A stretch of DNA of 64,000 bases from Bolinopsis microptera. Taxonomy: Eukaryota > Ctenophora > Tentaculata > Lobata > Bolinopsidae. The position numbers and the translations under genes were made by a program. The notes under the pieces are model-generated. The model was given only the letters and a program-made list of their open reading frames with translations, had not been told where the DNA came from and did not search any database. Positions within the stretch are counted from its first letter, which is position 1. Every line of letters begins with the position of its first letter. Positions 6,938 through 64,000 of the stretch are shown here, one piece after another. Location: contig NC_087076.1 of the NCBI RefSeq assembly GCF_026151205.1, positions 15,956,419 to 16,020,418 of the forward strand. The letters are read 5' to 3'.

Positions 6938-6980
6938 ATGAGAGTATTACAGTGGTTTTCTGTGGTACTTTTACTAAATG
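6938..6980 (+). CDS. Exon 1: signal peptide of the Ig gene
   Basis: The ATG opens a 14-codon exon encoding MRVLQWFSVVLLLN, with the hydrophobic core of a signal peptide. It ends AAT G before a good donor (gtaag), which sets the phase-1 pattern kept by later domain boundaries. I chose this start because the upstream sequence has no in-frame extension with signal-peptide character. Confidence 0.7.
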
Positions 6981-33900: not shown

Positions 33901-36900
33901 GCCGGATGTACCTTCAAGAACTTATAGAAATCATGTATCTAAAAGTGAATGATGTAGAGGGGGATGATTAGTAGTAAGAAAGCGGATCGATGTAGCGGAA
34001 AAAAAGCAAACCCTAGCAAAGAGTTTGACATACGTTGCATGCCACTTTTCGCGCGCGAAGCGCGCGCCGCCGAAGGCATATTATCCGCCGAAGGCCGCCG
34101 AAGGCATATTATCTCTGATATTGGGATACGAAACATGTATCAACAAAGAGTGATTTTATAACCAAATTCAGACAATTGTCTCGCCCATCGCCTGACATTT
34201 CAGGGTTTTTAGCCCTTATCAACCATGAACCGGGTGCTTCCGGATTTATACCGAAACCCATATTGGAAGAAAACACCCGATATACAACTGCAAAGCACAT
34301 TTTAATAACTTGAGCACAAAACTTGTCAAAAAAAGACCAAAGTAGTTGCCCAATTTGGTATTTTTCCTAACACGTGTAGCCAAAATGACTGATTTTTGTC
34401 AATATCTTAACAAATAAGCATTAAAGGGCTTATATTGCTTTATAAGTTGTATATAAATATGATGTTTGCGGTCATTTTAAGCTAAAATTCAAGTCTCTAC
34501 GACCTTCCTAGTTCAAGTTACCAAAATTCAGTGCCATTTTTGGTTCGCTGAGCCAAAAAACAGTTTTTTGTCAATATCTATAAAACGAAGCACTGGAGAC
34601 CTTATGTTGCTTCATAACTTGTATATAAATGTGGCCATTGCGGTAATTTTAAGCTAAAGTTTAAGTCTCTATGACCTTTAGGAGCTGAAATACAAAAATC
34701 CCGTATACGCGACTGAGGGTAATTTAGAAAATTTGCCCTGTAGGGTTATGTCTAGCGACACAAATTGCGTACCTAATCGATTTTGGTTAAGAATGATCTA
34801 ACAAACAACCCTGTGTTGTCAGAAATCGTGTACATCGAAGTGCACACTCAACTATTCCCTGCTACTGGAGTATAACTTGTTCATTAATATTTTTGATATG
34901 CAAGTGAGTTTTGGCCCTATTACTATTATGAATTATCAGCGGAACTTTAAACTGGTTCATGTCTCATCGTCCGGGTTATTGATATTTACCATCAGCTGAT
35001 GGTAAATATTCATGGCACAAGAAACGAGCGAACAAAGTGCGGTTATCTGACCCGCGTTCTGCACCCGCGCCAAATAAGATACGACTTATACGTGTTGAAA
35101 GAGCAAGGCTGTATGCTAATGCTATTGATGTTTCGAGCAGTTACTCCCTCAATTTTAAACGAGCCCTATGATCCCTCATGTGCTAAACAAGTAAACAGTA
35201 TCTCTGACCCATCAGTCACTCCCCCAGGTTGGTAACACAGAATCAGTAGCAGCTAACCAGCTCTACACCTCCACATACCCCGTAACACTGTCCCTGAGCA
35301 CCGCCGGAGTGTACAAGTGTGCTGCTACTTACCCGACCCAGACGGTCGGAAGTCAGACCTTGTCTCAGGGCACTGTGTTCAGTGGAGAGGCTGAGATCGT
35401 TGTGTTCGGTGAGTTCGCTTGTGATTTATATTTTTAATTTTACGTGTATTTTGTAAACACGTAAAATAGCTGATGCGGTTTAAAGCTGATCATGACTTGA
35501 CAGTTGACATGGACATTTTGAAGCTTACTAGCGAAAGATGGTATGTGATACTGGCATCATATCGACATCCAGTATTGTTCAAATCGTATTCTTCACAATT
35601 ACACTCCCAACAGATGTCATCCCAATCGAAAAAGAAGTAGAAACAGGCACGGACGCCACCCTGTCTTGTGTAGCCAGTGGTATCACCAAGCAACTGAACG
35701 CAGTCTCCTGGAAGAAGGACGGTAGTGACGTCACATCTCTCTCCAATATTAACTACGTAGTTAGCACGGGGGTTATAGTCTCCTCCACCCAGACCACAAC
35801 TCTAACGGTTAAAGCTGCCCTTAACACGGCTGATTCCACCTACACTTGTGTTATTTCTTCTGATGAGTACGGGATTACGGACAGAGAGACGACTGTTAAT
35901 CTGAACGTATTCAGTGAGTTTCAAATACAAGACGACTTCAGTTTGTTTTTAGATCGAATCCCTAGAATTTGGTGGTTTAAGTTATCAACTACTCTAGAAT
36001 ATGGATCAAAATATAAAATATGCCAGCTGAACTGAATGTAAATTATCTAACAATAAAAATCCCCTAAAAAACATGAAAATAACCCTCAACATTTTCAGCC
36101 ATAACTGTAAATGATAAGTCAGTGGTTCCACTTGCTGCCCAGACAATTATCACTTGCACTATCACTGGACTATCACAAGACACCACTATAGCCTGGCTTG
36201 GTCCTGATAACAACGAGATATCTACTTCTGATACCAACAACTATGTTGTTAATCAAGGCTCTTATTCCGCTGGAAGCAAAGCGTCAACTCTGACTATATT
36301 CAAAGCAAAATTAGGGACCCTCTCTTCGGATGTGAACTACTCCTGCAAACTGAAATCAGCTTTGTACTCAGATTCACCAGAGGTCATTAAAGCAATGACA
36401 CTTACCATCCTCGAATTTGGTAAGTTCTTGTTGTTCGTAACATAATTTGATCAGGAAAATTCTTGCGATTGTTCATAAATCCTGTGTATCCCATCTTGGA
36501 TTGGTAAACACTCTAGTGCCTCTGAATGATATGATGAAGTTATTACTTGATATATGTCAACATATCACACAATCCCTCAGGAGTCCGGCCTGCTAACATT
36601 GAAGTACTAGCCGGAGCTGATGCTACGCTCTCGTGCGTCATTACCGGCATTACTCAGCAGCTGAACACGGTTGTCTGGAAGAAAGTTGGCACGGATGTTA
36701 CAACTTTGTCAGGAAGCAACTATGTTGTATCTGCAGGGACTTACGGTTCCAACTCTCAAACTACAACGCTAACCGTAAAAGCTGCTGCTAACACAGCTGA
36801 CTCAATTTATACTTGTGCAGTCTCTTCCACTGAATGGGAGATAACAAACAGGGAGACGAGTGTTGCTCTGAACGTGTTCGGTAAATATTTACTGATCACG

Positions 36901-39900: not shown

Positions 39901-42900
39901 GGATTGTCACAGGACACCCCTGTTACCTGGATAGACCCTGACAATAACGAAATATCCGATTCTGACACCAACAACTATGTCATTGCTCAAGGCACTTATA
40001 TTTTCGGAAGCAAGGCATCAACTCTGACCATCAAAGCAGCCAAGTTTGCTTCTCTATCTTCAGGAGATATGTTCAAATGTAAACTGAAATCTGCTCTCTA
40101 TCCTACTGACTCTCCGGAGGTGGTGAATGAAATGACCCTGACCCTGCTAACACTGGGTGAGCAAGAAGCATATAATTTGCAACATCATCTTTTTATAAAT
40201 CATTCTTATTGCTTTATTGAATTCAGAGTAATAGGCTTCCACAGATACTTTTTTTATTGATCAAATGTTTAAACTTCAATTTCTCTTTCAGGCGTTCAGG
40301 CAATCAACAAAGAAGTTGATATTGGCACAGAGACTACCATCTCTTGTGTAATTACTGGTATCACGAAACAGCTCGACGCTGTTGTTTGGAAGAAGTTTGG
40401 CACCGACGTCACTACTTTGTCTGGAAGCAACTATGATGTCTCTGAAGGAACTTACGGTTCCAGCTCTCAAACTTCTGTACTGACTGTAAAGGCTGCTGCT
40501 AATTTAGCTGACTCAACCTACGCTTGTGCTATCACATCCGATGAATGGCTTGTGACTGACTCACAGACCAATGTCATTCTCAACGTATTCGGTAAGAATA
40601 TTAGCAGCTTTTTTTTCTACATCTTTAACCAACTGTTAACAGATTCAAACGATTGAAAAAGTTTTGTCAATTACTCGTGTAATGAATTATGTCCCTCGCA
40701 GTTTTGTAATTATTTAATTACATAATTTATAATTTTTGTATTTATTTCAGCCGTTACGTTTGAGGACCAATCTGTCACTACTGCTGCAGCTCAAACTATA
40801 ACCTGTGGTATTACTGGATTGTCAGCCGAACCCCCCATCACTTGGATAGGACCTGATGATAATGAGATATCTAGCTCTGACACTAGCAACTACGTCATCA
40901 GTCAAAGTGCATACCAACTCGGTAGCAAGTCATCATTTTTGGCCATCAAAACAGGAAAACTCTCCACCCTAAGCGCTGCTTCAGTTTTCAAATGTAAACT
41001 GAAGTCTGCAGCTTATCCTACTGATTCACCAGAAGTTGTAAAGGAAATGACTCTTACTCTGCTTGCTTTGGGTATGTTATTGGTCGGAGGCAAAACTTCT
41101 TCAGATACTGATTACAATTGTGTTTTTCTGTTGAGGGAAGTTTTATAACATAAAGGTGGTGGTATCGAGATTTATGAGCGTTAATGCTTTGAGTGAATAT
41201 AATTTTTCCTTTTTTCAGAGGTCACACCTACAAACAAAGAGGTGGAGACTAGTACTGATGCCACTGTCTCTTGTGTTATTACGGGTATCACCCAACAACT
41301 GGACAGTATTGTGTGGAGGAAAAGTGGAACAGATGTAACGACTTTGTCAGGAAGCAACTATGTTGTATCTGCAGGAACTTACAGTTCAAACTCTCAAACT
41401 ACAACACTCACTGTAAAGGCTGCTGCTAATACAGCTGATTCAACATATACTTGTGCTATCACATCTGATGAGTGGCTTGAAACAAATAGAGAGACAACTG
41501 TGGTTCTGAACTTATTCTGTAAGGATTTTAAAAACCATTAAGGAGTTCTCAATATCATAGTGAAACATATACAATAAACAATATACATACTTTAAAAAAG
41601 ATTTAATGACCATTACTTTGTTGACATTATATAACAAACTTTTATTTTCAGCTGTTGTATTGGAGGACAGAGTCGTTTCAACTGCTACAGATCAGCTACT
41701 GACCTGCACTATCAGTGGACTAGCACAAAGCACTCCTGTAACCTGGATAGATCCTGACAACAACGAAATATCTGACTCTGACACCAACAACTATGTCATT
41801 GCTCAAGGCACTTTTATCTTTGGAAGCAAGGCCTCAACTCTGACCATCAAGACCGCCAAGTTTGCTTCTCTATCTACAGAAGATGTGTTCAAATGTAAAC
41901 TGAAGTCTGCTCTCTATCCTACTGACTCCCCGGAGGTGGTGAATGAGATGACTCTGACTTTATTATCATTGGGTAAGTGTGACTTAATACGGATGAGTAA
42001 GAAGTAATGTTCCTTTATAAAATGTTGCCATGAAAAGTTGCTGTTCCACAGTTTGTTTTCTTGGAGGACTGTTTTTAATGATAACTATCCTTTCAGGTGT
42101 TCAGCCTATCAACAAAGAAGTCGAGTCGGGTACAGACACGACTATTTCGTGCGTTATCACCGGTATCACTCAGCAACTGAACGCTGTTGCTTGGAAGAAA
42201 GCTGGAACCGATGTTACATCTTTGTCTGGAAGCAACTACGTTGTATCTGCAGGACTTACGGTTCCAACTCTCAAACAACAACTCTTACTGTAAAAGCTGC
42301 TGCGAACACAGCTGACTCAACCTACACTTGTGCTATCGCATCAGATGAGTGGCTTCAAACGAACAAGGAAACGGCCGTATCACTTAACGTTTTCGGTAAA
42401 AAATCTTATAAATTCGAATTTCGGAGTTCAAACTGTTCAATCAATTTGTCCTTGTATGGGTTCATTGCAAGAGTAATCGTTTGACTTTTTATTGTTTACA
42501 TGTATTTACACTATCTATTTTACATCGTAACTGAATGATTGATATATCGTATGATTCATTTTCAGCTGTTGCATTCGATAACAAAGCTGTCACAACTGCA
42601 TCCGATCAAAATATTATTTGTACGATCAGTGGATTGTCGCTGGAAACACCTGTTACTTGGATAGATCCTGATAACAACGAGATATCAGACTCTGACACCA
42701 ACAACTATGTCATTGCTCAAGGCAGTTTTATCTTTGGAAGCAAAGCCTCAACCTTGACCATCAAAACAGCCAAGTTTGCTTTTCTATCTTCAGGAGATGT
42801 GTTCAAATGTAAACTGAAGTCTGCTCTCTATCCTACTGACTCCCCGGAGGTGGTGAATGAGATGACTCTGACTTTACTGTCTCTAGGTGAGTGCATTATG

Positions 42901-45900
42901 AATATTTCTGCAGTAAATCTTCATTTCGAACTTTTCTTGTCCTATTTATTAAGTCTTGGTGTCTGCTGCTTATAGTTTGTAACTTCTAACTGTCATGTCC
43001 ATACACTGCAAATGCTATATCACTTTTCTAACGCAACACATATATTAGCTGTTCATTATAAACAGTCAATGCTGTCGGGAGCAGTGACTCAAAAATACAT
43101 ACAGTAAAACCCCGATTTTCTGCGGTGTTTGAGAGAAAGCATGAAGCCGCGGTAAATCGGGGTTTGCGGTAAATCGGGGTTTTGCTTGTTTACATTATCT
43201 ATGTTAAGCTCTATTTGGGGGAAGGAAATAGCCGCGGTAAAGCGGGGTTTGCGGTTAATTGGGGAGCGGTGAATCGGGGTTTTACTGTACATTAATAAAG
43301 TGAAGACGATATTAATTTCTATCATCTGGACTTGTTCCTCCCTTCTATTAAATGTCTTAACATTACGTTTTTTCTCTCAGATGTCCAGGTCATCAGCAAG
43401 GAAGTTGACATTGGAACAGAAAATACCATTTCCTGCGTCATCACTGGTATCACGAGACAACTGGACGCTGTTGTTTGGAAAATGTCTGGCAGCGATGTAA
43501 CAACTTTGTCAGGAAGCAACTATGCTGTATCTGCAGGAACTTACGATTCCAACTCTCAGACTACAACACTTACTGTAAAAGCTGTTGCCAATACAGCTGA
43601 CACAACCTACACTTGTGCTATTACATCTGATGAGTGGCTTGTTACTGATAGGGAGAGTAATGTTCGCCTGAACGTGTTTGGTAAGGAATTGGAAACTTAA
43701 TTTGGATGCCTTTCGCTGAAAAATTGATGTTTCATCCTTTTTTGGATTCGTTCGATCATTGCTATGAATTCATATGTTAACTAATCATCAATATTTCAGC
43801 CGTAACATTTGTTGACCGATCCTTCATAACCGCTACTGATCAAACTATAACCTGTGCTATTACTGGATTGTCAGCAGAAACTCCTGTCACTTGGATAGGA
43901 CCTGATGATAACGAGATATCTAGCTCCGACACTAGTAACTATGTCATCAGTCAGGGTTCATATTCAGTTGGGAGCAAGTCATCATCTTTAACCATAACAA
44001 CAGGAAAAATGTTATCCCTCAGTAGTACTTCAGTTTTCAAATGTAAACTGAGGTCTTCAGTCTATCCAACTCATTCGCCCGATGTTGTAAAGGAAATGAC
44101 TCTTACTTTACTTACATTGGGTAAGTTCGAACAACCGTGCATTGATGTTTCTTTATAGATTTGTGACATTTTCATTTCAATTTTAAGTTTATCCATCCAT
44201 TCGAACCTTGAGTTGACAGCAAGTTTTAATGAATTTTAACGAAGTTTCTTTTTACAGATGTTCAGCCTATCAGCAAGGAAGTTGAATCAGGGACAGACAC
44301 GACTATTTCGTGTGTTATCACCGGTATTACTCAAGCACTGAATGGTGTTGTTTGGAGAAAAGTGGAACCGATGTAACGACTTTGTCAGGAAGCAACTATG
44401 CTGTATCTGCAGGAACTTATGGTTCCAACTCTCAAACAACAACACTTAGTGTTAAAGCTGCTGCTAATACAGCTGATACAACCTACACTTGTGCTATCAC
44501 ATCTGATGAGTGGCTTCAAACGAACAAGGAAACTTCCGTATTGCTCAATGTTTTCGGTAAGATATATATTTATTAACATTTTGAAAAGCATTTAAAAATA
44601 GATCTGTTGAAGGACAATCATATCTTGTTACACGTGTTTTGAATATGATACCTTATCAAGGTTTACAAGGTTTACAAGGTTTACAAGAATTGTTAATTCT
44701 GTTTTTTTTTCAAAATTGTTCTATTTTCAAGTGATGTCGTTGGAGAACAGATTGGTTACTACGGCAACAGACCAGACGATCACATGTTCGATCTCTGGAT
44801 TATCACAAGACTCCTCTGTTACCTGGATAGATCCTGACAATAATGAAATATCCAATACTGACACCAGCAACTATGTGATTTCTCAAGGCATTTTCATCTT
44901 TGGAAGCAAAGCCCCAACTTTGACAATTACAACAGCCAGAATAGCCGCCCTAACATCTGGAGACATATTCAAGTGTGAACTAAGATCTGCTTTGTACTCT
45001 GTACACTCTCCTGATGTTGTCAAAAGTATGGCCCTCTCCTTCCTCGCTCTGGGTAAGTGTTTTATCTGAACAACATGTAGATTGCAGAATGCAGGGCTCT
45101 TCAGTCATTAAAAACATTTGATGTTTCACTTTATAATATTTGCCGCAAAACAATTGATAGTTAACTCATACTGAACTGGTATGAAACTCTTCTGAATATA
45201 GCATTAACTAACTCAGTTATCTTTTATCAAAGTTGATACTCTTCATGTTTTAAATGTGCATTATATCTAGCTTGCGTTATCAGTTATGCTTATTCAGCGT
45301 TTTATGGTCCCTGGCTTGCAACTAGTTAACTAGGGAACGATTAGAGATTGTTATCATGTACTATTGGCTTGTCTGGAAACAATTTGTTAGAATAAAATTG
45401 AGTAACCGCTCTTGCTTCAGATGTTCAGCCCATAGACAAAGAAGTAAAAAGTGGCACTGATGCAACTGTTTCGTGTGTGATTTCCGGTATCACCCAACAA
45501 CTTGATGCTGTTGTTTGGAGGAAAAGTGGAACCGATGTTACATCTTTGTCAGGAAGCAACTATGTTGTTTCTGAAGGAACTTACGGTTCCAATTCTCAAA
45601 CTACAACACTCACTGTAAAGGCTGCTGCTAACACAGCTGACTCAACCTACACGTGTGCTATCACATCCAATGAGTGGCTTCAGACCAACAAGCAGACCGA
45701 TGTTATCCTGAACGTTTTCTGTAAGTATTGCTCCCTTCTATAATATTAACTTAGTTGCTCTTTTAAAGCTTAGACAGAAAAATTTCCCTCTTCTATGTCA
45801 GTTTCACCATTTGTTATCGCAACCAAATCTTTCAGCTATTGTGTTTGAAGACAAATCTGTCACGACTGCAACCAATCAAGATCTTATCTGCACGATCAGT

Positions 45901-60900: not shown

Positions 60901-63900
60901 ACTTAATGTCTTATGTAAGTTTTAGTTTATATTTTGCACCGTGATATTTAACGTGTTTTACAAGTTTAGATATTATATAAGGGTTACATATTATGTTCGG
61001 TTTAGCAAAAAATTCAGCCCGACATCTTTAGTGTGTCTTATATCAAAACTATTTTCAGCCGTTGGTTTGGAAGACAAGACTGTTACTACTGCAACTGATC
61101 AAGATATTATCTGCACGATCAGTGGATTGTCACAGGACACGCCTGTTACTTGGATAGATCCTGATAACAACGAAATATCAGACTCTGACACCAACAGCTA
61201 TGTCATTGCTCAAGGCAGTTTTATCTTTGGAAGGAAAGCATCAACCCTGACCATCAAGACCGCAAAGTTTGCTTCTCTATCTTCAGGAGATGTGTTCAAA
61301 TGTAAACTGAAGTCTGCTCTCTATCCTACTGACTCCCCGGAGGTGGTCAATGAGATGAGTCTGACTTTACTGTCTCTAGGTTAGTGATCAATATAAACTA
61401 TGCTCAAATCAAATTAGATTATCTATGTTAGCTGCGCAGGTATGCTTAAAGAGGTCATTTTTTATAATTGTTTTAAGAAAACCATATCAATTTGATATGT
61501 TTGAAATTAGTCTATTGATTGCATTGATTTTCAGAGGTTCAACCAAAAAACAAAGAAGTCGAGGAAGAAACCGATGCAACTATTTCGTGTGTTATCACCG
61601 GTATCACTCGACAACTTGATGCTGTTGTTTGGAGAAAGGATGGCACCGATGTAACATCTTTGTCAGGAAGCAACTATGTTGTATCTGCAGGAACTTACGG
61701 TTCCAACTCTCAAACTACTACACTTAGTGTAAAAGCTGCTGCTAATACAGTAGATTCAACCTACACTTGTGCTATCACATCAAATGAATGGCTTCAGACT
61801 AATAAAGAGACAAATGTCATCCTAAACGTTTTCGGTAAATATTATTCTTTTGTTTCCATATTTACAGTGGAAATTTGATAAATAAGATAGAAAGAAGTAT
61901 TTTTCTTTTGAGTTTGTTTTCCAGCAATTTTCTAATATCCTAACTTCTTCTTCAGCCGTACAATTCATCGATAGATCTGTCACACCAAAAATAGACCAAA
62001 CTCTTACTTGCACTATCAGTGGACTGTCCCAAAATACTCCGATTACATGGATAGGACCTGACAACAACGAAATTTCTGAATCCGACACCAGCGACTATGT
62101 GATTAATCAAGAAACATTTGTGTTTTCTAGCAAGGCCTCCACCTTGACTATAACGCCATCGGTTCTTGAATCTCTTCCCTCTACCTCTGTCTACAAATGT
62201 AAACTCAAGTCCGCTGCTTATCCTGACTTTTCACCTGAAGTTGTGAACGAGATGACCCTTACTATATTGGAACTCGGTAAAAATCATTAAAAGATGTGTT
62301 AGATAACCTTACAGTTGATCTCATAGTTATCAGGCAGTCTTTAATTCGTTTTAAAAGAGGGTGTTTCCCATGATTGTATTTTTGCCCAAAAGTCATATCT
62401 GCCCTTTTAACAATGATATAACACATCTCCTCTAAAGGTGTTGAGCCTACCAACAAAGAGGTGGAAAGTGGAACAGATACTACAGTTTCATGTTTCATTT
62501 CGGGTATCACCCGACAACTTGACGCTGTTGTTTGGAGAAAGGACGGCACCGATGTAACGACTTTGTCAGGAAGCAACTATGTTGTATCTGCAGGGCCTTA
62601 TGGTTCCAACTCTCAAACTACAACACTTACTGTAAAAGCTGCTGCTAATACAGCTGATTCCACTTTTACGTGTGCCATCACTTCTAACGAACACCTAGAG
62701 ACCAATAAAGAAACCTTTGTTACTTTGAACGTGTTTGGTAAGACATCTTATTGTATCAGATTAGTAGAAGCAATTAATTGTATAATTCTATCGAGTTTAT
62801 AACAAATAACACCTTGGCTTAGTTTCGTGCCCAACGATCACTCCGGTGAAGCGTCGGGAATTATTGCGCTTAGCACTCAACAACCAAGGAATTATTTTAT
62901 TATATTTACAACAAGCCATGCATGTTTCAGCCTTCCAACTCTTTTTCATAGTAGTGAATATTGTTCGTTATGATTATTATACTATTACTTATCATTTTCA
63001 TGCTATTACAGATGCGTCGTTGGATGACCGAACAGTTGTGCCTGCCACGGATCAGACTATCATATGTTCGGTGTCTGGGTTATCACAGAACACACCTGTA
63101 ACATGGATTGGTCCTGATGATAACGAGATATCAGAGTCTGACTCAAACAACTACTTGATCAGTCAAGGCAGTTTTATTTTCGGAAGCAAAGCTGCCACTC
63201 TGACCATAAAAGCAGCTAAGATGAGTTCCCTGACGTCTGGAGCAGTTTTCAAATGTAAACTGAGGTCGTCTCTTTATCCAACTCATTCGCCTGATGTAGT
63301 AAAAGAAATGGAACTTTCTTTTTATACCCTAGGTATACAGACTTTTTAAATGTACTTCCAATTTGTATGTTGATAAGAATTCGATTACTACCATTTGAAT
63401 ATGATTTTAGGATAATTTTGAATCTTTGATTTGACACGTTTATTCCACTTTTCTCACAACACTCATGATGGTAAATACTTAACCTGTTCTTATCTAAATT
63501 GCTTTTTCAGCGGTTCAAACTGTAAACAAGGAAGTACAATCTGGAGCTGATGCAACCATATCTTGTGTCATCACTGGTATTACCAAAAACCTGGACTCGG
63601 TCATCTGGAGGAAATCTGGTACCGATGTAACAACTTTGTCAGGAAGCAACTACGTTGTATCTGCAGGGACTTACGGTTCCAACTCTCAAACTACAACACT
63701 TACAGTAAAGGCTGCTGCTAATACTGCTGACTCTACCTACACTTGTGCTATCACATCTGATGAGTGGCTGGAAACAAATAAAGAAACCACCTGTGATATT
63801 AAACGTGTTTTGTGAGTCGAACTTTTGATTCAAGACATATATTTTCTAATGGCAAAAATAATTTGTAGCAAAAACAATTAATACTGCTGATACTGATATT

Positions 63901-64000
63901 ATTACATTATTTTCAGCCGTTACTTTTGAAGATAAGGTTGTCACCACTACGTCCGATCAAAATCTTATCTGCACGATCAGTGGGTTAGCACAGAACACCC
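6938..64000 (+). CDS. Giant multi-exon Ig-superfamily gene: signal peptide, GCC2/GCC3, Sushi, 16 split Ig domains, then 29 A-B Ig exon pairs (3' end outside window)
   Basis: A chain of 94 exons can be joined with matching phases from the signal-peptide ATG at 6938 to the window edge. All canonical domain boundaries fall in phase 1. The array A domains carry the motifs EVESGTD, SCVITGITQQLDAVVW, SGSNYVVSAGTYGSNSQ and STYTCAI. The B domains carry TATDQ, CTISGL, PVTWIDPDNNEIS and FKCKLKSA. Both keep the two disulfide Cys and the core Trp. B exons fall into sub-families used in later entries: B-I (ALYPTDSPEVVNEM), B-II (WIGPDDNEISSSD), B-III (TITCSISGLSQDSSVTW or close), B-IV (AAYPDFSPEVVNEM) and B-V (VVPATDQ with NEISESD). 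No membrane segment or stop is visible, so membrane-bound versus secreted is undecided. A cell-surface or matrix recognition role is inferred from domains only. Two genes, split at the 9.8 kb intron, are an alternative reading, but phases fit across it. Confidence 0.7.
7187..7291 (+). CDS. Exon 2: small Cys-containing linker module
   Basis: A 105-nt phase 1-1 exon encodes an acidic, Ser/Gly-rich segment ending VICGEGQVASSDGTTC. I do not recognise the fold. Its last Cys may pair with the GCC2/GCC3 module of the next exon. Acceptor (cccag) and donor (gtatg) are good. Confidence 0.6.
7508..7663 (+). CDS. Exon 3: GCC2/GCC3 (ephrin-receptor-like) Cys-rich module
   Basis: The exon encodes the pattern CATGTYALEDSCVDCARGTY, then SDREGATECTPCGTG, and ends TSASLCI. 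The C-x2-C-x2-GTYSD and GATECTPCGTG motifs are diagnostic of the GCC2/GCC3 repeat found in large extracellular proteins such as SVEP1/polydom and sushi-containing receptors. Phase 1-1, one domain in one exon. Confidence 0.8.
7835..7996 (+). CDS. Exon 4: Sushi (CCP)-like module
   Basis: A 162-nt phase 1-1 exon encodes about 54 residues with four Cys, a Gly-Thr-Phe centre, VVNCNTGYSS and SYECEKIVSCS. Spacing and the C-x-x-GY motif fit a Sushi/CCP domain. The usual Trp before the last Cys is absent, so the call is weaker than for exon 3. Confidence 0.6.
8156..9335 (+). CDS. Ig domains 1 and 2 (exons 8156-8230, 8464-8569, 8686-8897, 9162-9335)
   Basis: Ig1 is spread over three exons: the B-strand Cys lies in ATITCEVSS, the core Trp in CVWNKDG and the F-strand Cys in GVYTCSAS. 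The third exon reads straight from the end of Ig1 into the first half of Ig2 (ILTCGADAPS, TIAWADG), so two domains share one exon. Ig2 ends in 9162-9335 with DSYICTVSYSD. Junction phases are 1, 2 and 1, and all join in frame. Confidence 0.72.
9482..10262 (+). CDS. Ig domain 3 (exons 9482-9635, 10147-10262)
   Basis: The first exon carries SVTLTCVASSAQQATITW. The second has TPYTCTALYNGVKVTG. The internal intron is phase 2 and the outer boundaries are phase 1. Confidence 0.72.
10478..10989 (+). CDS. Ig domain 4 (exons 10478-10642, 10858-10989)
   Basis: The first half encodes VTMSCTVLSPS and HIRWYKGD. The second half encodes EGGFYCKATYADN and ends AYLLVY. The intron inside the domain is phase 1. 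Confidence 0.72.
11178..11464 (+). CDS. Ig domain 5, single exon with a 1-nt frameshift
   Basis: The exon starts ATLTCVISGPVPSTVQWYHE and continues to KRVEIVEG. The expected C-terminal half (LAITSLELADKGNYNCKV) is one frame off. The exon is 287 nt, where a phase 1-1 exon needs 288 or another multiple of three, so one base is missing near 11341-11352. Followed literally, the frame stops at 11410. Outer splice sites are intact, and skipping the exon would keep the frame. It is the only one-exon domain in the 5' part of the gene. Confidence 0.6.
11694..12203 (+). CDS. Ig domain 6 (exons 11694-11785, 12017-12203), altered final donor
   Basis: The first exon encodes TTTLTCKIYAGEQPNL and ends in phase 0. 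The second encodes TLVLENLQESDFTLYSCDAF and ends TQITLA. The phase-1 boundary needed by the next exon falls at CTCGCAG followed by ATATGG. There the expected donor GT is AT, apparently a G-to-A change from GTATGG. A GT four bases further on would put the join out of frame. Confidence 0.58.
12323..13056 (+). CDS. Ig domain 7 (exons 12323-12488, 12932-13056)
   Basis: The first half carries VKVTCSINYSNSPPTIVWYK. The second has FADEGQYKCQATYSG and ends FELFVR. The internal intron is phase 2 and contains an AT-rich minisatellite. Confidence 0.72.
12643..12924. repeat. Intronic minisatellite, about 19-20 bp unit
   Basis: About fourteen degenerate copies of a unit like CATCTAATTAGTTAACATC run in tandem inside the Ig7 intron. 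Early copies have TTTG where later ones have TTAG, so the array has diverged in blocks. Confidence 0.9.
13857..14378 (+). CDS. Ig domain 8 (exons 13857-13950, 14173-14378)
   Basis: The short first exon holds DAKLTCVYKNEVQTAV and splits the Thr codon before WYKNN (phase 2). The second exon holds AQLFCRATLGG and ends VTMTVY. The preceding 800-bp intron shows nothing I can identify. Confidence 0.72.
14379..15744. promoter_or_regulatory. 1.37 kb intron with a cluster of CACGTG boxes, ATTGG and GATAAG motifs
   Basis: Four CACGTG cores lie within 173 bases (14871-15043). One is a perfect GTCACGTGAC palindrome at 14996-15005, the consensus of MiT/TFE (CLEAR) factors. Three ATTGG motifs (inverted CCAAT) lie next to them, and several GATAAG motifs are nearby. 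This could be an intronic enhancer. It could also be a repeat, since the ATTGG/TCACGTGA combination recurs in tandem. No coding exon is visible here. Confidence 0.4.
15745..16492 (+). CDS. Ig domain 9 lacking both canonical cysteines (exons 15745-15863, 16318-16492)
   Basis: The domain aligns with its neighbours (SISVELGSSISL, then TITINWFKS, then GDAGNYFYEVTYG). However, the B-strand Cys is Ala (SLAGS) and the F-strand Cys is Tyr (YFYEV). The core Trp is kept. Both exons are open with matching phase-0 splice sites, so this looks like a working domain without a disulfide. Confidence 0.7.
16078..16294. repeat. 31-bp minisatellite, seven copies
   Basis: Seven near-identical copies of a 31-bp unit containing CTGTTAACCAATGTTAGCAC lie in the Ig9 intron and end just upstream of the acceptor of exon 16318. 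High identity between copies implies recent expansion, so copy number is probably polymorphic. Confidence 0.92.
16725..17177 (+). CDS. Ig domain 10 (exons 16725-16878, 17044-17177)
   Basis: The first exon has SMTLTCVARADSQPSSLSW. The second has VNDAGSYKCRAIWSDVET. The internal intron is phase 2. Confidence 0.72.
17372..17831 (+). CDS. Ig domain 11 (exons 17372-17490, 17648-17831)
   Basis: The first exon has TVTFTCKTSTSSQLSQISW and a phase-0 end. The second has NLQVYCQIDYQTG and ends ADLFYR. Confidence 0.72.
17980..18394 (+). CDS. Ig domain 12 (exons 17980-18158, 18277-18394)
   Basis: The first exon has GLTLTCVVSGDEPDSITWFK. The second has FSKGSYVCKAKFSDN. The internal intron is phase 0. Confidence 0.74.
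18663..19185 (+). CDS. Ig domain 13 (exons 18663-18791, 19021-19185)
   Basis: The first exon has TVTLTCVLSSKPSTNSATFT. The core Trp position reads TYLDSGG, so Trp is replaced by Tyr or Leu. The second exon has LTGKTFLCQADFSS. The internal intron is phase 1. Confidence 0.68.
19344..19939 (+). CDS. Ig domain 14 in three exons (19344-19475, 19637-19731, 19864-19939)
   Basis: The exons carry in turn ALTLTCGASYYSSLPTTFTW, then ASTLTIGSLSYNTVTNTQ, then DQYQCSVAYTG ending FADVYVR. Internal introns are phase 1 and phase 0. Confidence 0.7.
20138..20598 (+). CDS. Ig domain 15 (exons 20138-20244, 20427-20598)
   Basis: The first exon has AFTLSCSYMSNQAVTVSWKQ. The second has VADAGDYKCTATEDSREV and ends VTLTVL. 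It closes in phase 1 at a gtacat donor, which joins in phase to the exon at 30415, 9.8 kb away. Confidence 0.7.
20599..23178. other. First part of the 9.8 kb intron, no recognised gene
   Basis: AT-rich sequence between the Ig15 donor and a retrotransposon fragment. Short open frames exist on both strands but show no domain or composition support. Confidence 0.55.
23179..23895 (-). pseudogene. 5'-truncated non-LTR retrotransposon reverse transcriptase fragment
   Basis: The 238-codon frame matches the C-terminal part of LINE reverse transcriptases: GLHLNESETKY, then DDFVYLGS, then the thumb-like VEPVLLYGSEAWT, RMRLAGHVARH and GRPHLTFLDM. It lacks the catalytic palm motifs, so it is a dead 5'-truncated copy on the minus strand inside the Ig-gene intron. 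The ATG at 23895 is not a real start. It is a different sub-family from the copy at 32899. I could not identify target duplications. Confidence 0.8.
23896..25185. other. Intronic stretch without recognised gene
   Basis: AT-rich DNA containing a short T-rich run near 24720. I see no conserved frame or RNA gene. Confidence 0.5.
25186..26028 (-). CDS. Intact retrotransposon ORF1-like RNA-binding protein
   Basis: The 280-residue frame starts at the ATG at 26028 (MEFSVSTLHELEKQIEDLSD) and ends at 25186. The N-terminal third is helical and probably a coiled coil. The middle has KNFIIFGAPE and TNIERVGVKKSD, and the end has SRPIKVTLRD, REFLSRAKVLK, YLSPDRSQDERISR and KKYYIKNNKVC. This layout matches the RRM-type ORF1 proteins of LINEs widespread in cnidarians and molluscs. 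No partner reverse transcriptase lies beside it. The open frame suggests a recent insertion or a retained single-exon gene. It sits antisense in the intron. Confidence 0.6.
   Translation of the reverse strand: MEFSVSTLHELEKQIEDLSDSVLANLNCRKLEDLTHDLFKPKGVTKDVITEIVLKMGSMICKSRNVLRSAAETLDQQKSEQIKTQNELIQCKSGKLASVKETVKTEMKLFTDVVKNNSVASDISPAKIKMAVKSAITEDDRSKNFIIFGAPEQLECEEQEMNERDLVGDIWGFMKFIGRPTITNIERVGVKKSDSPRSRPIKVTLRDPEIVREFLSRAKVLKSVDVADYNFNYNKLYLSPDRSQDERISRQKLVQEMKEGIKKDPSKKYYIKNNKVCVAE
26121..26167. repeat. Two-copy 24-bp tandem repeat
   Basis: GCGAAAAGATTGATTGCACA plus four bases is repeated twice just upstream of the ORF1-like frame. It is too short to class. Confidence 0.7.
26168..28328. 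other. Intronic stretch upstream of the nested gene
   Basis: About 2.2 kb of AT-rich DNA with no supported exon. It must contain the promoter of the nested gene at 28329 if that gene is transcribed on its own. Confidence 0.5.
28329..29712 (+). CDS. Secreted or GPI-anchored Cys-rich protein with three repeats, nested in the Ig-gene intron (one frameshift)
   Basis: The ATG at 28329 opens a signal peptide (MTRSLILIITLFGSGLTIFC) and a first Cys-rich segment (CHQCRRE, CLEKPQPC, MHNCTS). The frame breaks between about 28573 and 28612, where VEVFFC in one frame should continue into ACTFDNN in the next. It then runs to the stop at 29712. Three roughly 85-residue repeats follow, each opening with a C-x2-C (HVCSTC, HVCSTC, VVCNVC) and containing DxCxxxxGC. 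Two of them also contain CSVCEDxEC. The C-terminus (SICMWLLVFLNFVCCTTCLY) is hydrophobic after a Thr/Gly-rich spacer, which suits a GPI signal or a single membrane anchor. I do not recognise the family. A Ly6-like origin for the first segment is possible. Confidence 0.65.
29713..30414. other. Downstream region of the nested gene to the next Ig exon
   Basis: AT-rich sequence. No clear AATAAA signal is visible directly after the nested gene's stop. It ends at the acceptor (ctcgcag) of the first Ig16 exon. Confidence 0.5.
30415..35408 (+). CDS. Ig domain 16 (exons 30415-30533 and 35228-35408) split by a transposon-filled intron
   Basis: The first exon has TTLSCILASSQWSATLIW and ends in phase 0. 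The second has LSTAGVYKCAATYPTQ and ends EAEIVVF in phase 1. The 4.7 kb intron between them is mostly the inverted-repeat element. It is the last split Ig domain before the single-exon array. Confidence 0.72.
31830..32090 (+). pseudogene. Decayed retroelement C-terminal fragment inside the inverted-repeat element
   Basis: Reading across two frame changes and a stop gives RPDVVIYSDKAKKVHLNE, a broken basic segment, then EIEANGWACKLQTVGVGARG and a leucine-rich end. This resembles the RPDIV...WEE...GW...VEVGCRGF region found downstream of reverse transcriptase in some LINE-derived sequences of aquatic animals. It is clearly dead. Confidence 0.42.
32899..33890 (+). mobile_element. 5'-truncated LINE with AGT-repeat tail inserted in the right arm
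   Basis: The insertion is bounded by an 11-bp target duplication TTTACATCATG at 32888-32898 and 33891-33901, and ends in an (AGT)n tail. Its frame (to the stop at 33861) carries RT motif GVLQGDTLAPYLF, the catalytic FADD, GLHINEGKTK, DDFIYLGSW, LLYGSETWTL and RRLKMAGHCIRH. The ATG that seems to open it at 32896 belongs to the target duplication, so it is fortuitous. Confidence 0.9.
34025..34143. mobile_element. 119-bp hAT-like miniature element with GC-rich hairpin core
   Basis: The left arm of the large element lacks this segment. It is flanked by the 8-bp direct repeat CAAAGAGT (34017-34024 and 34144-34151). Its ends TTGACATACGTTGC and TTGATACATGTTTC (reverse complement of the right end) match at 10 of 14 positions. 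The core is very GC-rich, with a GCGCGC-GAA-GCGCGC palindrome and three copies of CCGCCGAAGGC, unlike everything around it. Confidence 0.65.
35614..36419 (+). CDS. Array pair 1: A1 35614-35913, B1 36099-36419
   Basis: First single-exon pair. A1 (DVIPIEKEVETGTDATLSC) is the most divergent A in its second half, where VVSTGVIVSSTQ replaces the near-invariant SAGTYGSNSQ. B1 reads TIITCTITGLSQDTTIAWLG. Confidence 0.78.
36581..37364 (+). CDS. Array pair 2: A2 36581-36880, B2 37038-37364
   Basis: A2 is the first with the standard SAGTYGSNSQ segment. B2 is 327 nt, two codons longer, with an insertion around FNAGQTYNYKCKLKSAQYPD. Confidence 0.78.
37484..38281 (+). CDS. Array pair 3: A3 37484-37783, B3 37961-38281
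   Basis: A3 begins GVQPINKEVQSGTDATVSC. B3 is an unassigned B (VLTCAVTGLSADTTVTWVDP) with AVYPVYSPESINEMTLTAL. Confidence 0.8.
38480..39253 (+). CDS. Array pair 4: A4 38480-38779, B4 38933-39253 (B-III)
   Basis: A4 has SEDNYDVSAGTWGSNSQ and FEWLEQNKETTVSLNVF. B4 (TITCSISGLSLDTPITWIDP) is the first of the B-III type. Confidence 0.8.
39407..40156 (+). CDS. Array pair 5: A5 39407-39706, B5 39836-40156 (B-I)
   Basis: A5 begins DVQSTNKEVESGTDTTISC. B5 is the first B-I exon, with ALYPTDSPEVVNEMTLTLL. Confidence 0.82.
40292..41071 (+). CDS. Array pair 6: A6 40292-40591, B6 40751-41071 (B-II)
   Basis: A6 has SEGTYGSSSQTSVLTVKAAA, a variant of the common A segment. B6 is the first B-II exon (ITCGITGLSAEPPITWIGPD). 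Confidence 0.82.
41219..41972 (+). CDS. Array pair 7: A7 41219-41518, B7 41652-41972 (B-I)
   Basis: A7 begins EVTPTNKEVETSTDATVSC. The 5' part of B7 (VVLEDRVVSTATDQLLTC) is nearly identical at nucleotide level to B20, 12.7 kb away, which implies recent copying or conversion. Confidence 0.82.
42097..42886 (+). CDS. Array pair 8: A8 42097-42395 (frameshifted), B8 42566-42886 (B-I)
   Basis: A8 is 299 nt. One base is missing at about 42252-42254, where siblings read CTGCAGGAACTTAC and A8 reads CTGCAGGACTTAC. Everything before and after matches the family and both splice sites are intact. B8 is intact. Confidence 0.75.
43102..43287. mobile_element. 186-bp miniature inverted-repeat element (MITE) with TA duplication
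   Basis: Ends CAGTAAAACCCCGATT and its reverse complement are flanked by TA (43100-43101, 43288-43289), as for Tc1/mariner/pogo-derived MITEs. Internally the CGGTAAATCGGGG-like motif recurs four or five times. It sits in the intron between B8 and A9 and codes for nothing. Confidence 0.85.
43381..44120 (+). CDS. Array pair 9: A9 43381-43680, B9 43800-44120 (B-II)
   Basis: A9 has GTYDSNSQTTTLTVKAVANT, a variant of the common segment. B9 reads FVDRSFITATDQTITCAITG. Confidence 0.82.
44258..45052 (+). CDS. Array pair 10: A10 44258-44556 (frameshifted), B10 44732-45052 (B-III)
   Basis: A10 is 299 nt. One base is lost at about 44355-44361, just after the core Trp (TTTGGAGAAAAGTGGAACC against TTTGGAGGAAAAGTGGAACC in siblings). 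B10 starts at a TTTTCAAG acceptor, where most array exons use CAG. Confidence 0.74.
45421..46156 (+). CDS. Array pair 11: A11 45421-45720, B11 45836-46156 (B-I)
   Basis: The A11-B11 intron is nearly identical to the A14-B14 intron 2.8 kb downstream, which shows that the duplication unit included introns. B11 has AHDNFIFGSK in place of AQGxFIFGSK. Confidence 0.82.
46314..47046 (+). CDS. Array pair 12: A12 46314-46613, B12 46726-47046 (B-II)
   Basis: A12 begins GVQPVNKEVEAATDAVVSC and has FFTSNEW at its F-G end. B12 has LYKCKLTSSQYPDESPAVVK. Confidence 0.82.
47319..48084 (+). CDS. Array pair 13: A13 47319-47618, B13 47764-48084 (B-III)
   Basis: A13 begins DVEPTNKEVESGTETTVSC. B13 has ISVLDTPNYVIDQATYVFGN, a more divergent C-D region. 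Confidence 0.82.
48229..48966 (+). CDS. Array pair 14: A14 48229-48528, B14 48646-48966 (B-I)
   Basis: Recent sister of pair 11 in exons and intron. A14 begins DVESKNKEVESGTDATISC. B14 has AQGNLIFGSK and AIYPTDSPEVV. Confidence 0.83.
49089..49871 (+). CDS. Array pair 15: A15 49089-49388, B15 49551-49871 (B-II)
   Basis: A15 begins DVLPTDKEVETGTDTTISC. B15 shares ISTSK-like TITTSKIGSLTSGDKFKCKL with B19, so those two are close sisters. Confidence 0.82.
49992..50754 (+). CDS. Array pair 16: A16 49992-50291, B16 50434-50754
   Basis: A16 has SAGSYGFNSQ. B16 is an unassigned, divergent B: its first part reads VQFDDVSLPPPTELSISC, so TATDQ is replaced by a Pro-rich stretch. The rest (WIGPDDIEISDSD, FKCKLKSALYPT) is standard. 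Confidence 0.78.
51059..51791 (+). CDS. Array pair 17: A17 51059-51358, B17 51471-51791
   Basis: A17 has SEDNYDVSAGTYGSNSQ like A4, and ends NEYQETNKETLVTLNVF. B17 begins MTFDDKAMTTATDQDLTC and has VYKCTLKSSLYPTYSPDVV. Confidence 0.8.
51963..52721 (+). CDS. Array pair 18: A18 51963-52262, B18 52401-52721 (B-III)
   Basis: A18 begins DIQPTNKEIETGTETTISC. B18 has NDITDTDTNNYVINQGKLIF and FRCRVKSSLYATYSS. Confidence 0.82.
52866..53716 (+). CDS. Array pair 19: A19 52866-53165, B19 53396-53716 (B-II)
   Basis: A19 begins DVQPTNKEIESGTDATVSC and has SGINYVVSAG. The A-B intron is 230 bp, longer than most. Confidence 0.82.
53855..54675 (+). CDS. Array pair 20: A20 53855-54154, B20 54355-54675 (B-I)
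   Basis: Start of the three-pair higher-order repeat. A20 begins EVLPINKEQESGTDAVISC and has SESDYVVSAETYGSNSQ. The 5' half of B20 nearly duplicates B7. Confidence 0.82.
54831..55573 (+). CDS. Array pair 21: A21 54831-55130, B21 55253-55573 (B-IV)
   Basis: A21 begins GVQPINKEVLTATDATISC. B21 is the first B-IV exon (VQFVDRAVTSKIDQALTC, with AAYPDFSPEVVNEM). Confidence 0.82.
55692..56438 (+). CDS. Array pair 22: A22 55692-55991, B22 56118-56438 (B-V)
   Basis: A22 uses a TTAAG acceptor and begins GVEAIGKEVESGTDATISC. It ends DEHLESDKPTPVTLNVF, a terminus shared with A25. B22 is the first B-V exon. Confidence 0.82.
56635..57359 (+). CDS. Array pair 23: A23 56635-56934, B23 57039-57359 (B-I)
   Basis: A23 has LDSVIWRKSG, shared with A26 and A29. 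B23 has KTAKFPSLSS and PEVVTEM, small changes from the B-I norm. Confidence 0.83.
57503..58325 (+). CDS. Array pair 24: A24 57503-57802, B24 57978-58325 (B-IV, longer)
   Basis: A24 begins DVQPTNKEVEEETDATISC, and the EVEEETD variant recurs in A27. B24 is 348 nt, nine codons longer than the norm. Changes lie in the N-terminal strand (NDEYFSASVFSKRDHILTC) and the C-D region (DSNNVLGNRENIIDDNYAVD). Confidence 0.8.
58565..59390 (+). CDS. Array pair 25: A25 58565-58864, B25 59070-59390 (B-V)
   Basis: A25 uses a TTTAAAG acceptor and begins GVEAISKEVETGIDATISC. B25 is nearly identical to B22, with the same SESDTNNYLISQGNFIFTNK. Confidence 0.82.
59456..59700. repeat. Poly-G run and GC-rich insert
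   Basis: Fifteen G residues (59456-59470) are followed by a GC-rich stretch with no match to the array introns. It marks the left edge of a ~1 kb insertion into the B25-A26 intron, compared with the sister B22-A23 intron. Confidence 0.6.
59771..60030 (+). pseudogene. Decayed type-B Ig exon, relic of B24
   Basis: The acceptor TTTACAG is followed by sequence aligning with B24 (CACAATTTTGACGATTTTCTCC, then TCGTGTTTGGAAGCAAG, then TATCCGACTTTTCACCT), but with many deletions and frame breaks. The upstream intron also aligns with the A24-B24 intron (AAATTTATCAAGGAAACAAT). Confidence 0.8.
60217..60421 (+). pseudogene. Decayed type-A Ig exon, relic of A25
   Basis: TTAAAGGATGTTGAAGTCAA aligns with the A25 acceptor and start. 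Further matches are AACAACTATTTTGAGTTA and GGAGTAACGCGCAACCG. The following intron aligns with the A25-B25 intron (AATATACAACGTT). All frames are broken. Confidence 0.75.
60615..61379 (+). CDS. Array pair 26: A26 60615-60914, B26 61059-61379 (B-I)
   Basis: Sister of pair 23: the sequence upstream of A26 (GCTTGTTTGAGATTTGGGTA) matches that upstream of A23. A26 begins GVQAINKEVESGTDATISC. B26 has TNSYVIAQGSFIFGRK. Confidence 0.83.
61535..62276 (+). CDS. Array pair 27: A27 61535-61834, B27 61956-62276 (B-IV)
   Basis: A27 shares EVEEETDATISC with A24. B27 shares LPSTSVYKCKLKSAAYPDFS with B21, rather than the longer B24, so B24 gained its extra codons afterwards or B27 was replaced from B21. Confidence 0.83.
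62438..63332 (+). CDS. Array pair 28: A28 62438-62737, B28 63012-63332 (B-V)
   Basis: A28 uses a CTAAAG acceptor, as in A22 and A25, and begins GVEPTNKEVESGTDTTVSC. The A-B intron is 274 bp, the longest A-to-B intron in the array. B28 has SQGSFIFGSKAATLTIKAAK. Confidence 0.82.
63511..64000 (+). CDS. Array pair 29: A29 63511-63811 (frameshifted), B29 63917-64000 (partial, window edge)
   Basis: A29 is 301 nt. An extra T at about 63792 (ACCACCTGTGATATT against ACCACCGTGATATT in A20) shifts the last few codons. B29 begins VTFEDKVVTTTSDQNLIC and is B-I-like, so the I-IV-V order seems to start a fourth round at the edge. Confidence 0.75.

Follow-up and report, generated by a model that had tools for sequence, protein, structure and literature searches.

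A stretch of 64,000 nucleotides from the lobate ctenophore Bolinopsis microptera (hereafter the window; C5:15956419-16020418 of the 264.65-Mb genome) contains a tandem array of single-exon immunoglobulin (Ig) domains of two kinds, A and B. When two glutamate-receptor genes of this genome were compared with the PDB, one matched ML032222a, a Mnemiopsis receptor, best and the other was closest to vertebrate kainate receptors. The following 120 kb were fetched and numbered on in window coordinates, and the array was found to run past the window edge, spanning 35614-90838 with 111 exons (56 A, A1-A56; 55 B, B1-B55). The two kinds alternate without a break over all 111 exons, giving the formula A(BA)55. 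The array is real, far from what chance would produce, and larger than first described. Our favoured explanation, which we consider probable, is that it forms the central ectodomain rod of a giant protein of the receptor-type tyrosine phosphatase kind, encoded by what we refer to as the window gene.

Within the window, 29 A exons (A1 at 35614-35913 to A29 at 63511-63811) and 28 B exons are complete, and B29 (320 nucleotides, full exon 63917-64236) is cut at the edge. A exons there measure 300 nucleotides, save A8 and A10 (299) and A29 (301); B exons measure 321, save B2 (327) and B24 (348). Median sizes over the whole array are 927 bp for an A-B unit and 148 nucleotides for an intron. Once the limits of nine exons had been set again, AG preceded and GT followed 111/111 exons. 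All array introns are in phase 1, and each of the 104 in-frame exons (104/111) is free of stops and carries a Cys-Trp-Tyr-x-Cys core. A preliminary description of the window, made from its letters alone, had reported strict A-B alternation from 35.6 kb to the window edge, the same exon lengths with the B2 and B24 exceptions and three A exons bearing a 1-nucleotide indel, as well as these exon limits, phases and conserved cysteines and tryptophans; all of this is borne out by the exon table and the splice-site and core counts. It had also judged the gene unfinished at the edge; the array itself continues to A56, which brings it to nearly double the length visible in the window. Its total of about 74 Ig domains is fair for the window, but the array alone reaches 111 when followed further, and counts of the Ig domains split over two exons on either side are rough: core motifs in the output of a home-made gene finder numbered 13 for 6.9-36 kb, counting A1, and 22 for the part beyond the array.

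The seven exons that are out of frame (7/111) each carry a 1-nucleotide indel: A8, A10, A29, B29, A30, B31 and B38, the last four lying at or past the window edge. Four of the seven fall between 63.5 and 66.4 kb. The indels of A8, A30 and B29 are in short homopolymers, and that of A29 perhaps is too. In the array part of the window, A and B profiles matched 59 open frames on the forward strand, none on the reverse strand and none in each of 20 first-order Markov resamples, which rules out a chance or reverse-strand reading of the array.

Both kinds of exon encode one complete Ig domain. AlphaFold2 models (27 sequences for each kind) displayed the strands of a beta-sandwich, with a mean predicted local distance difference test score (pLDDT) of 88.0 for A and 86.1 for B, and the two cysteines and core tryptophan that mark the Ig superfamily were present in 104/104 in-frame exons. 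Pfam assigned A2 to I-set (30.4 bits) and B2 to Ig_3 (21 bits, below the cut-off). Mean pairwise protein identity was 0.75 among A domains, 0.64 among B domains and 0.24 between the two (51 A and 51 B; the nine exons with manual limits were left out). Only a single residue is added between adjacent domains by the exon junctions.

Comparison of identity by lag revealed a higher-order organization. A super-repeat of three pairs (six domains) was found in B1-B36 and A21-A36, and is unclear in A1-A20; from pair 37 to the end of the array the super-repeat comprises two pairs (four domains). Mean DNA identity in B21-B36 was 0.745 at lag 3 compared to 0.63 at lags 1 and 2, and in B37-B55 it was 0.84 at lag 2 compared to 0.68 at lags 1 and 3. 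These super-repeats of six and four domains indicate that the array grew by duplication of blocks of exon pairs.

The array copies are under purifying selection. The median ratio of nonsynonymous to synonymous substitution rates (dN/dS) was 0.17 for A and 0.158 for B, over 1326 pairs with defined values and 52 exons for each kind, rising to 0.29 (A, n=5) and 0.225 (B, n=17) in the closest pairs. When the corresponding proportions (pN/pS) were computed by structural region from pairs sharing more than 82% DNA identity (106 for A, 119 for B), values ranged from 0.04 to 0.39 and no region looked hypervariable. Diversifying selection on the copies was not seen by either measure, and because dN/dS is about 0.16-0.29, with pN/pS of no region above 0.39, the earlier characterization of the protein as fast-evolving is unsupported. 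Much of the residue variation lies at residue positions A93, A95, A10 and A79 (G strand, F strand and N-terminal part), and many of their neighbours are nearly fixed.

N-glycosylation sequons are strikingly scarce, although the copies are related and the counts are hence not independent: 14 were observed in the array against about 163 expected (A, 3 against 93; B, 11 against 70). The depletion extends to distinct A and B copies from other loci (0 against 22.6 and 3 against 11.5 expected, respectively) and to the flanks of the array as given by the gene finder (4 against 21 upstream, 12 against 61 downstream). Over the array and predicted flanks (6.9-150 kb) it amounts to about 5- to 30-fold relative to shuffles, while the first halves of eight glutamate-receptor-like open reading frames (ORFs) of the same genome were near expectation (1-5 against 2.2-4.3). 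The rods may pack, or bind, through bare protein surfaces, and the depletion offers a testable clue that they do.

Ig domains split over two exons resume directly after A56, from 91008-91214 onward. GCC2 domains were identified downstream by Pfam at 100.6 and 108.5 kb and by similarity at about 139 and 150 kb; Sushi-like modules of this C5 part stayed below the Pfam cut-off at best (17 bits and 12.1 bits). A GCC2-Sushi cassette occurs at 6.9, 108 and 150 kb, with identities over 100-105 amino acids of 40% (6.9/108), 40% (108/150) and 29% (6.9/150), and the 150-kb copy adjoins a protein tyrosine phosphatase (PTP) domain. The last large exon, at about 150.5-151.9 kb and thus ~87 kb past the window, carries this PTP domain and one transmembrane (TM) helix just before it, where 19-residue windows reach a mean hydrophobicity of 3.95; among the pieces predicted as far as this exon, the next highest mean was 1.91. 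The PTP domain (PF00102, 254.8 bits, exon residues 199-426) has PTPRS as its best match in the PDB, and the best PTP match of the whole genome is this exon itself.

The PTP exon and its seven closest relatives (the best 7 of 2534 matches, 57-85% identical, the next listed match being at 40%) retain the motifs known as WPD, KNRY and the Gln loop. In all eight (8/8) the signature reads HCSAG[AS]GWTG, with tryptophan in place of the catalytic arginine of CX5R, the core PTP motif according to PMC7959691. Since the tryptophan is conserved in 8/8 sequences, an error in a single assembly is very unlikely to account for it. Because the signature arginine is replaced in every relative compared, the cytoplasmic PTP domain of the window gene is most likely non-catalytic, a predicted pseudophosphatase.

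The genome was searched with A and with B proteins (best 150 of 897 and of 563 candidates scored, respectively), and tandem series were grouped by hand into loci, this array included and isolated matches dropped. Among the matches listed, tandem A- and/or B-type matches occur at at least 20 loci with a spacing of about 0.9-1.05 kb. Both kinds are present at 12/20 loci (by matches or, at C1:1.16 Mb and C9:10.55 Mb, in the pieces that were fetched), and the remaining 8/20 have one kind alone among the matches listed. Separate A and B profiles run over pieces of the loci found the alternation repeated at C9:10.55, C4:3.53, C1:16.75, C1:1.17 and C9:3.64 Mb, with neighbouring units mostly near-identical at the first three. 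The preliminary description knew no family that combines such an alternation with a GCC2/GCC3-Sushi N-terminus. No paper on the alternation was found among those listed from the open-licence PMC literature, and the same listings yielded nothing on alternating Ig arrays or receptor phosphatases of ctenophores. The design is no singularity, for it recurs at these loci of the same genome. The near-identical units of C4:3526409-3552326 (950-bp spacing) and C9:10551748-10563632 (mostly 1040 bp), unlike the diverged C5 array, likely reflect recent amplification or strong homogenization.

One of these loci provides a second case in which an array is predicted to be joined to a phosphatase. At C9:3.636-3.686 Mb, a single predicted chain comprises 12 A and 11 B domains in alternation (the first A weak, at 27 bits), followed by Ig and cysteine-rich modules, a TM helix and two PTP domains (Pfam PTP, 479 bits), both with intact signatures (HCSAGVGRTG and HCSAGIGRTA). 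Also included in the chain are some small exons and, upstream, a retroelement ORF interrupted by a single stop, all of which were judged spurious. Across the genome, 3/20 array loci are followed on their own strand by a PTP domain no more than 120 kb downstream, and none has one on the wrong side or strand; random placement gave a mean of 0.09 such links (P = 0.00015; 20,000 draws, nine chromosome lengths approximated). In another assembly, P0122, which is 84% identical to the PTP exon of the window gene, lies on a 207,750-bp contig, and nine A/B exon proteins have a contig of identical length as their source; judging from the equal size, P0122 and these proteins presumably share one contig.

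These nine proteins belong to a homologue set for one A-B pair (best 120 of 240), in which source contigs are distinguished by size alone. For contigs of 203,454 and 397,380 bp, 14/18 listed exon proteins have a counterpart in the C5 array that is at least 89% identical; in 6/14 of these the next-best-scoring exon trails by 5 points or more (A2, 93.9 and then 76.8), and in the rest it comes almost level. For four other long contigs, 0/33 listed exon proteins have a counterpart at 89% or above. In a close relative, exon identity thus appears to survive in part, and in more distant ones it is blurred, which is what occasional duplication and loss of blocks would produce. The A-B Ig dimer family has so far been seen here in ctenophore or marine sequence only. 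A-type Ig domains in phages were considered and rejected. The candidate, P0246 (ENA, 286 amino acids), joins half an A domain to a marine phage structural region; it is probably a chimeric contig, because its listed viral relatives (80 of 120 loci) cover it from residue 33 or later only (mostly 43-286), and a one-pattern profile scan of viral contigs confirmed an A domain in 0/22 stretches. Another protein, P0243 (JGI, 293 amino acids), has an A-type Ig domain (50% identical) within a protein of PTASPT-like repeats, which we take to be like those of some protists, and may represent transfer, a chimera or another lineage.

The upstream part of the window gene is summarized with the other features of the window in Table 1. 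A continuous forward-strand design, as proposed in the preliminary description, is supported, with a possible start exon at 6938 whose hydrophobicity (1.82) is at background in a signal-peptide screen. The proposed GCC2/GCC3-Sushi N-terminus holds by Pfam for its GCC2 half; the Sushi half is recognized by similarity to the 108-kb cassette, Pfam called no Sushi at 7835-7972, and at 108 kb it gave E=0.27. A small gene and retroelement pieces break the exon chain between A1 and the upstream Ig part, which ends at ~20.6 kb.

Table 1. Features of the window, in window coordinates
Feature	Position	Strand	Basis
Possible first exon: start codon and short hydrophobic stretch (MRVLQWFSVVLLLN), then GT donor	6938..6980	+	direct reading, gene finder
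GCC2/GCC3 exon (Ephrin_rec_like, PF07699)	7508..7663	+	Pfam 35.4 bits, frame residues 508-553
Sushi-like exon	7835..7972	+	GCC2-Sushi pair 40% identical over 100 amino acids to 108-kb cassette
Ig domains split over two exons each, limits approximate	8156..20598	+	Pfam Ig_3/I-set/V-set, gene finder
Small separate-looking gene between upstream Ig part and array	28329..29712	+	ORFs; gene-finder exons 28319-28541, 28594-29646
Reverse-transcriptase fragment (retroelement) in presumed intron	32881..33861	+	RVT_1 E=2.4e-10
Probable second half of split Ig domain directly 5' of A1	35228..35408	+	gene-finder exon, YKC motif
A1-B1 ... B28-A29, 57 complete alternating single-exon Ig domains	35614..63811	+	exon table, splice and core check, Pfam, AlphaFold2
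A8, 299 nucleotides (1 short)	42097..42395	+	exon table, indel context
A10, 299 nucleotides (1 short)	44258..44556	+	exon table, indel context
A29, 301 nucleotides (1 long)	63511..63811	+	exon table, indel context
B29 start	63917..64000	+	full exon cut at window edge

The small gene has a hydrophobic start, cysteine-rich repeats and a hydrophobic C-terminal end that by eye resembles a glycosylphosphatidylinositol signal; Pfam found no match in it. It probably sits inside a presumed intron of the giant gene. Further retroelement-like pieces lie on the reverse strand at 23179-23898 and 25186-26082, and the 25.2-26.1 kb stretch recurs beside the C1:1.17 Mb array (98.6% over 143 amino acids). Upstream of the gene start, a reverse-strand ORF at 184-1482 is glypican-like (PF01153, 19 bits, below the cut-off).

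Array and PTP exon would lie in one transcript over 145 kb, as suggested by the predicted chain and the genomic linkage. Several observations weigh against this. The gene finder was crude. Its training set comprised ORFs of glutamate receptors together with some exons and the splice sites of the array. Under a high gene-end penalty it returned long chains over 6938-36000 and 90633-151859, the array between them not being run in one piece; without this penalty it split the region into several genes (pieces at 3051-23518, 23659-36000, 90633-116483, 117022-128596, 129027-143628 and 144953-156007), and some of the exons it put out were obviously spurious. Signal-peptide-like ORFs were equally frequent on the reverse strand (above a cut of 1.7, four stretches in 20.6-150.5 kb gave 14, 47, 13 and 27 forward compared to 16, 34, 8 and 33 reverse), and the one at 107416 (2.98) is stronger than that at 6938. 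Signal-peptide screens, their scores being at background, thus cannot decide where genes start and were discarded as a guide, and this slightly lowered our confidence in the favoured model. No transcript or cDNA across the array was found among the eight matches of a protein search, of which P0242 and P0245 are NCBI models and the other six unspliced genomic frames or other proteins. If splicing is constitutive, the 7/111 frame-shifted exons would cut the protein short, except where they are skipped or result from errors of the assembly. At 17/20 array loci no PTP domain lies within 120 kb, so either other C-terminal ends must exist or the genes are longer, and the third linked pair (C9:9.745 and 9.835 Mb, 85 kb apart) is a matter of proximity alone, with an opposite-strand B-like match in between. 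Finally, Pfam called no Sushi domain in the C9 piece, whose modules are Sushi-like by eye, and the C5 Sushi matches are sub-threshold.

P0242, a B. microptera model of 670 amino acids and the one NCBI model seen with both kinds in alternation, has three B and three A domains spliced alternately, as predicted here. It is named 'Ig heavy chain C region, secreted form-like', shows no PTP domain, begins in the middle of a domain and looks incomplete; the label is misleading for a ctenophore Ig array. P0245 contains two Ig domains of weak similarity.

These observations would fit a different arrangement, in which the array forms a gene of its own, encoding a giant protein that is secreted or part of the matrix, as hemicentin is, and has the downstream PTP receptor as its neighbour or tandem relative. 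The unforced cuts in the 145 kb, the internal starts that background-level signal-peptide-like ORFs make possible, the 17/20 loci without a nearby PTP and the name and missing PTP of P0242, apparently incomplete though it is, all point this way. So does the absence outside the array of a strong TM segment before the PTP exon, because of which an array gene ending earlier would be secreted. We nevertheless regard this arrangement as rather unlikely, if still to be reckoned with: the predicted chain at C9:3.64 Mb unites array, TM helix and PTP; linkage of array and PTP is above chance and seems to recur on the 207,750-bp contig of another assembly; and Ig exons resume directly after A56. The TM and PTP exon, the C9 chain and P0122 likewise make a receptor-phosphatase-like transmembrane protein the most likely product, in place of the matrix protein that had been suggested. 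A recognition system for self/non-self or immunity, with polymorphic arrays altered between individuals by unequal crossing-over, would be in keeping with the at least 20 loci, with almost homogeneous arrays such as C4:3.526-3.552 Mb (950 bp) and C9:10.55-10.56 Mb (mostly 1040 bp), with the lack of close counterparts (0/33) on the more distant contigs and with the suitability of receptor phosphatase outputs for signalling. We hold it to be distinctly unlikely, given purifying selection in every region (in one genome) and the 14/18 exon proteins of the closer contigs that keep a counterpart at 89% or above, from which the C5 array appears fairly stable over that time.

Two further readings were considered. 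Since all exon limits are in phase 1, any in-frame exon could be skipped without a change of frame, and the array might serve as a reservoir for alternative splicing, its phase 1-1 exons kept or skipped per cell to yield many isoforms (Dscam-like in effect); seven frame-shifted exons would be tolerable if skipped. This seems very improbable, as diversifying selection is not seen and pN/pS of every region is below 0.4, 104 in-frame exons are stop-free, short homopolymers, where assembly errors are to be expected, hold three of the seven indels (A8, A30, B29) and perhaps that of A29, and symmetric exons are usual among tandem Ig proteins. That the indels, four of them clustered, betray a decaying and only partly functional array is harder still to credit: the other 104 exons lack nonsense codons, purifying selection is strong and 3/7 indels clearly sit in runs of identical bases.

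The receptor-phosphatase model that we favour would work as follows. A dimeric module of A and B, one exon each with phase 1 introns, was duplicated as exon-pair blocks into the array, and all array exons would be spliced into one protein. Its order would be GCC2, Sushi-like and split-exon Ig domains, the array, further modules of the Ig, GCC2 and Sushi-like kinds, and finally a single TM helix and a single PTP domain. With its single-residue junctions the array would be a semi-rigid rod, some 0.4-0.5 micrometre long if each Ig domain contributes about 4 nm. Such a rod could extend far from the membrane and contact a ligand, the matrix or an identical rod on a neighbouring cell, and the resulting clustering might be passed to the cytoplasmic PTP fold. 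In the window gene this fold may act as a scaffold or decoy that binds or sequesters partners of phosphotyrosine pathways, and the sister gene at C9:3.64 Mb would couple a like array to two signature-intact PTP domains acting as an enzyme.

Like receptor-type PTPs (RPTPs) of the LAR/PTPRS (type IIa) and PTPRK/PTPRM (R2B) kinds, the window gene would combine an Ig ectodomain, one TM helix and a cytoplasmic PTP domain; PTPRS and LAR are the best solved relatives of its PTP exon. A TM helix and a cytoplasmic classical PTP domain, by which RPTPs are recognized, are present, and the CX5R signature is missing from the window gene and intact in each PTP domain at C9:3.64 Mb. Ig domains are few in human RPTPs; here the array alone has 111, accompanied by GCC2 and Sushi-like modules, a single PTP domain and tryptophan for the CX5R arginine. 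PMC7320164 states that most human RPTPs have two PTP domains, as the C9 gene has. It also describes PTPRU as an RPTP with a non-catalytic membrane-proximal domain that is proposed to bind substrates, its activity lost via loop rearrangements and its WPD loop containing a glutamate. Unlike PTPRU, the window gene has lost the signature arginine and retained the WPD, KNRY and Gln-loop motifs.

Titin, an intracellular muscle protein with fibronectin type III (FnIII) and kinase domains, resembles the array in its long tandem Ig rods and higher-order super-repeats. In contrast to titin, the array is probably extracellular, is built of Ig domains only, has super-repeats of 4 and 6 and would belong to a gene with GCC2 and PTP domains. 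According to PMC3859903, the I-band of titin contains roughly 105 Ig domains, and the super-repeats, found in its A-band, are made up of 7 or 11 domains of the FnIII and Ig types. Titin is thus a precedent for rod length and super-repeats, and RPTPs are one for the membrane and cytoplasmic end of the model. Hemicentin is extracellular and has dozens of tandem Ig domains, but the window gene differs from it in having GCC2 upstream and a TM helix with a PTP domain at the downstream end; a VWA domain of the hemicentin type was not found in 6-26 kb (Pfam, three forward frames, E up to 1), where one split over short exons could be missed. Dscam shares the presence of many Ig exons in one gene. Its variable exons are alternative cassettes, whereas each exon of the array, known here from DNA alone, is a whole, conserved Ig domain. 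The window gene most likely encodes a receptor phosphatase variant built on the A-B Ig dimer family.

Taken together, these results identify a genome-wide family of tandem A/B Ig domains that seems to be broken up by gene annotation, as in the 670-amino-acid piece P0242, and a predicted pseudophosphatase end that has been kept through divergence down to 57% identity. The arrays provide a concrete entry to adhesion and recognition in ctenophores. A broader and rather doubtful proposal, which we offer tentatively, is that ctenophores evolved a large recognition-receptor family of their own, combining A-B rods of variable length at at least 20 loci with active or inactive PTP domains, in which the length and sequence of the rod, altered by duplication of exon pairs, would set the specificity or spacing of cell contacts. 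If true, ctenophores, a lineage near the animal root, would have a receptor family of their own.

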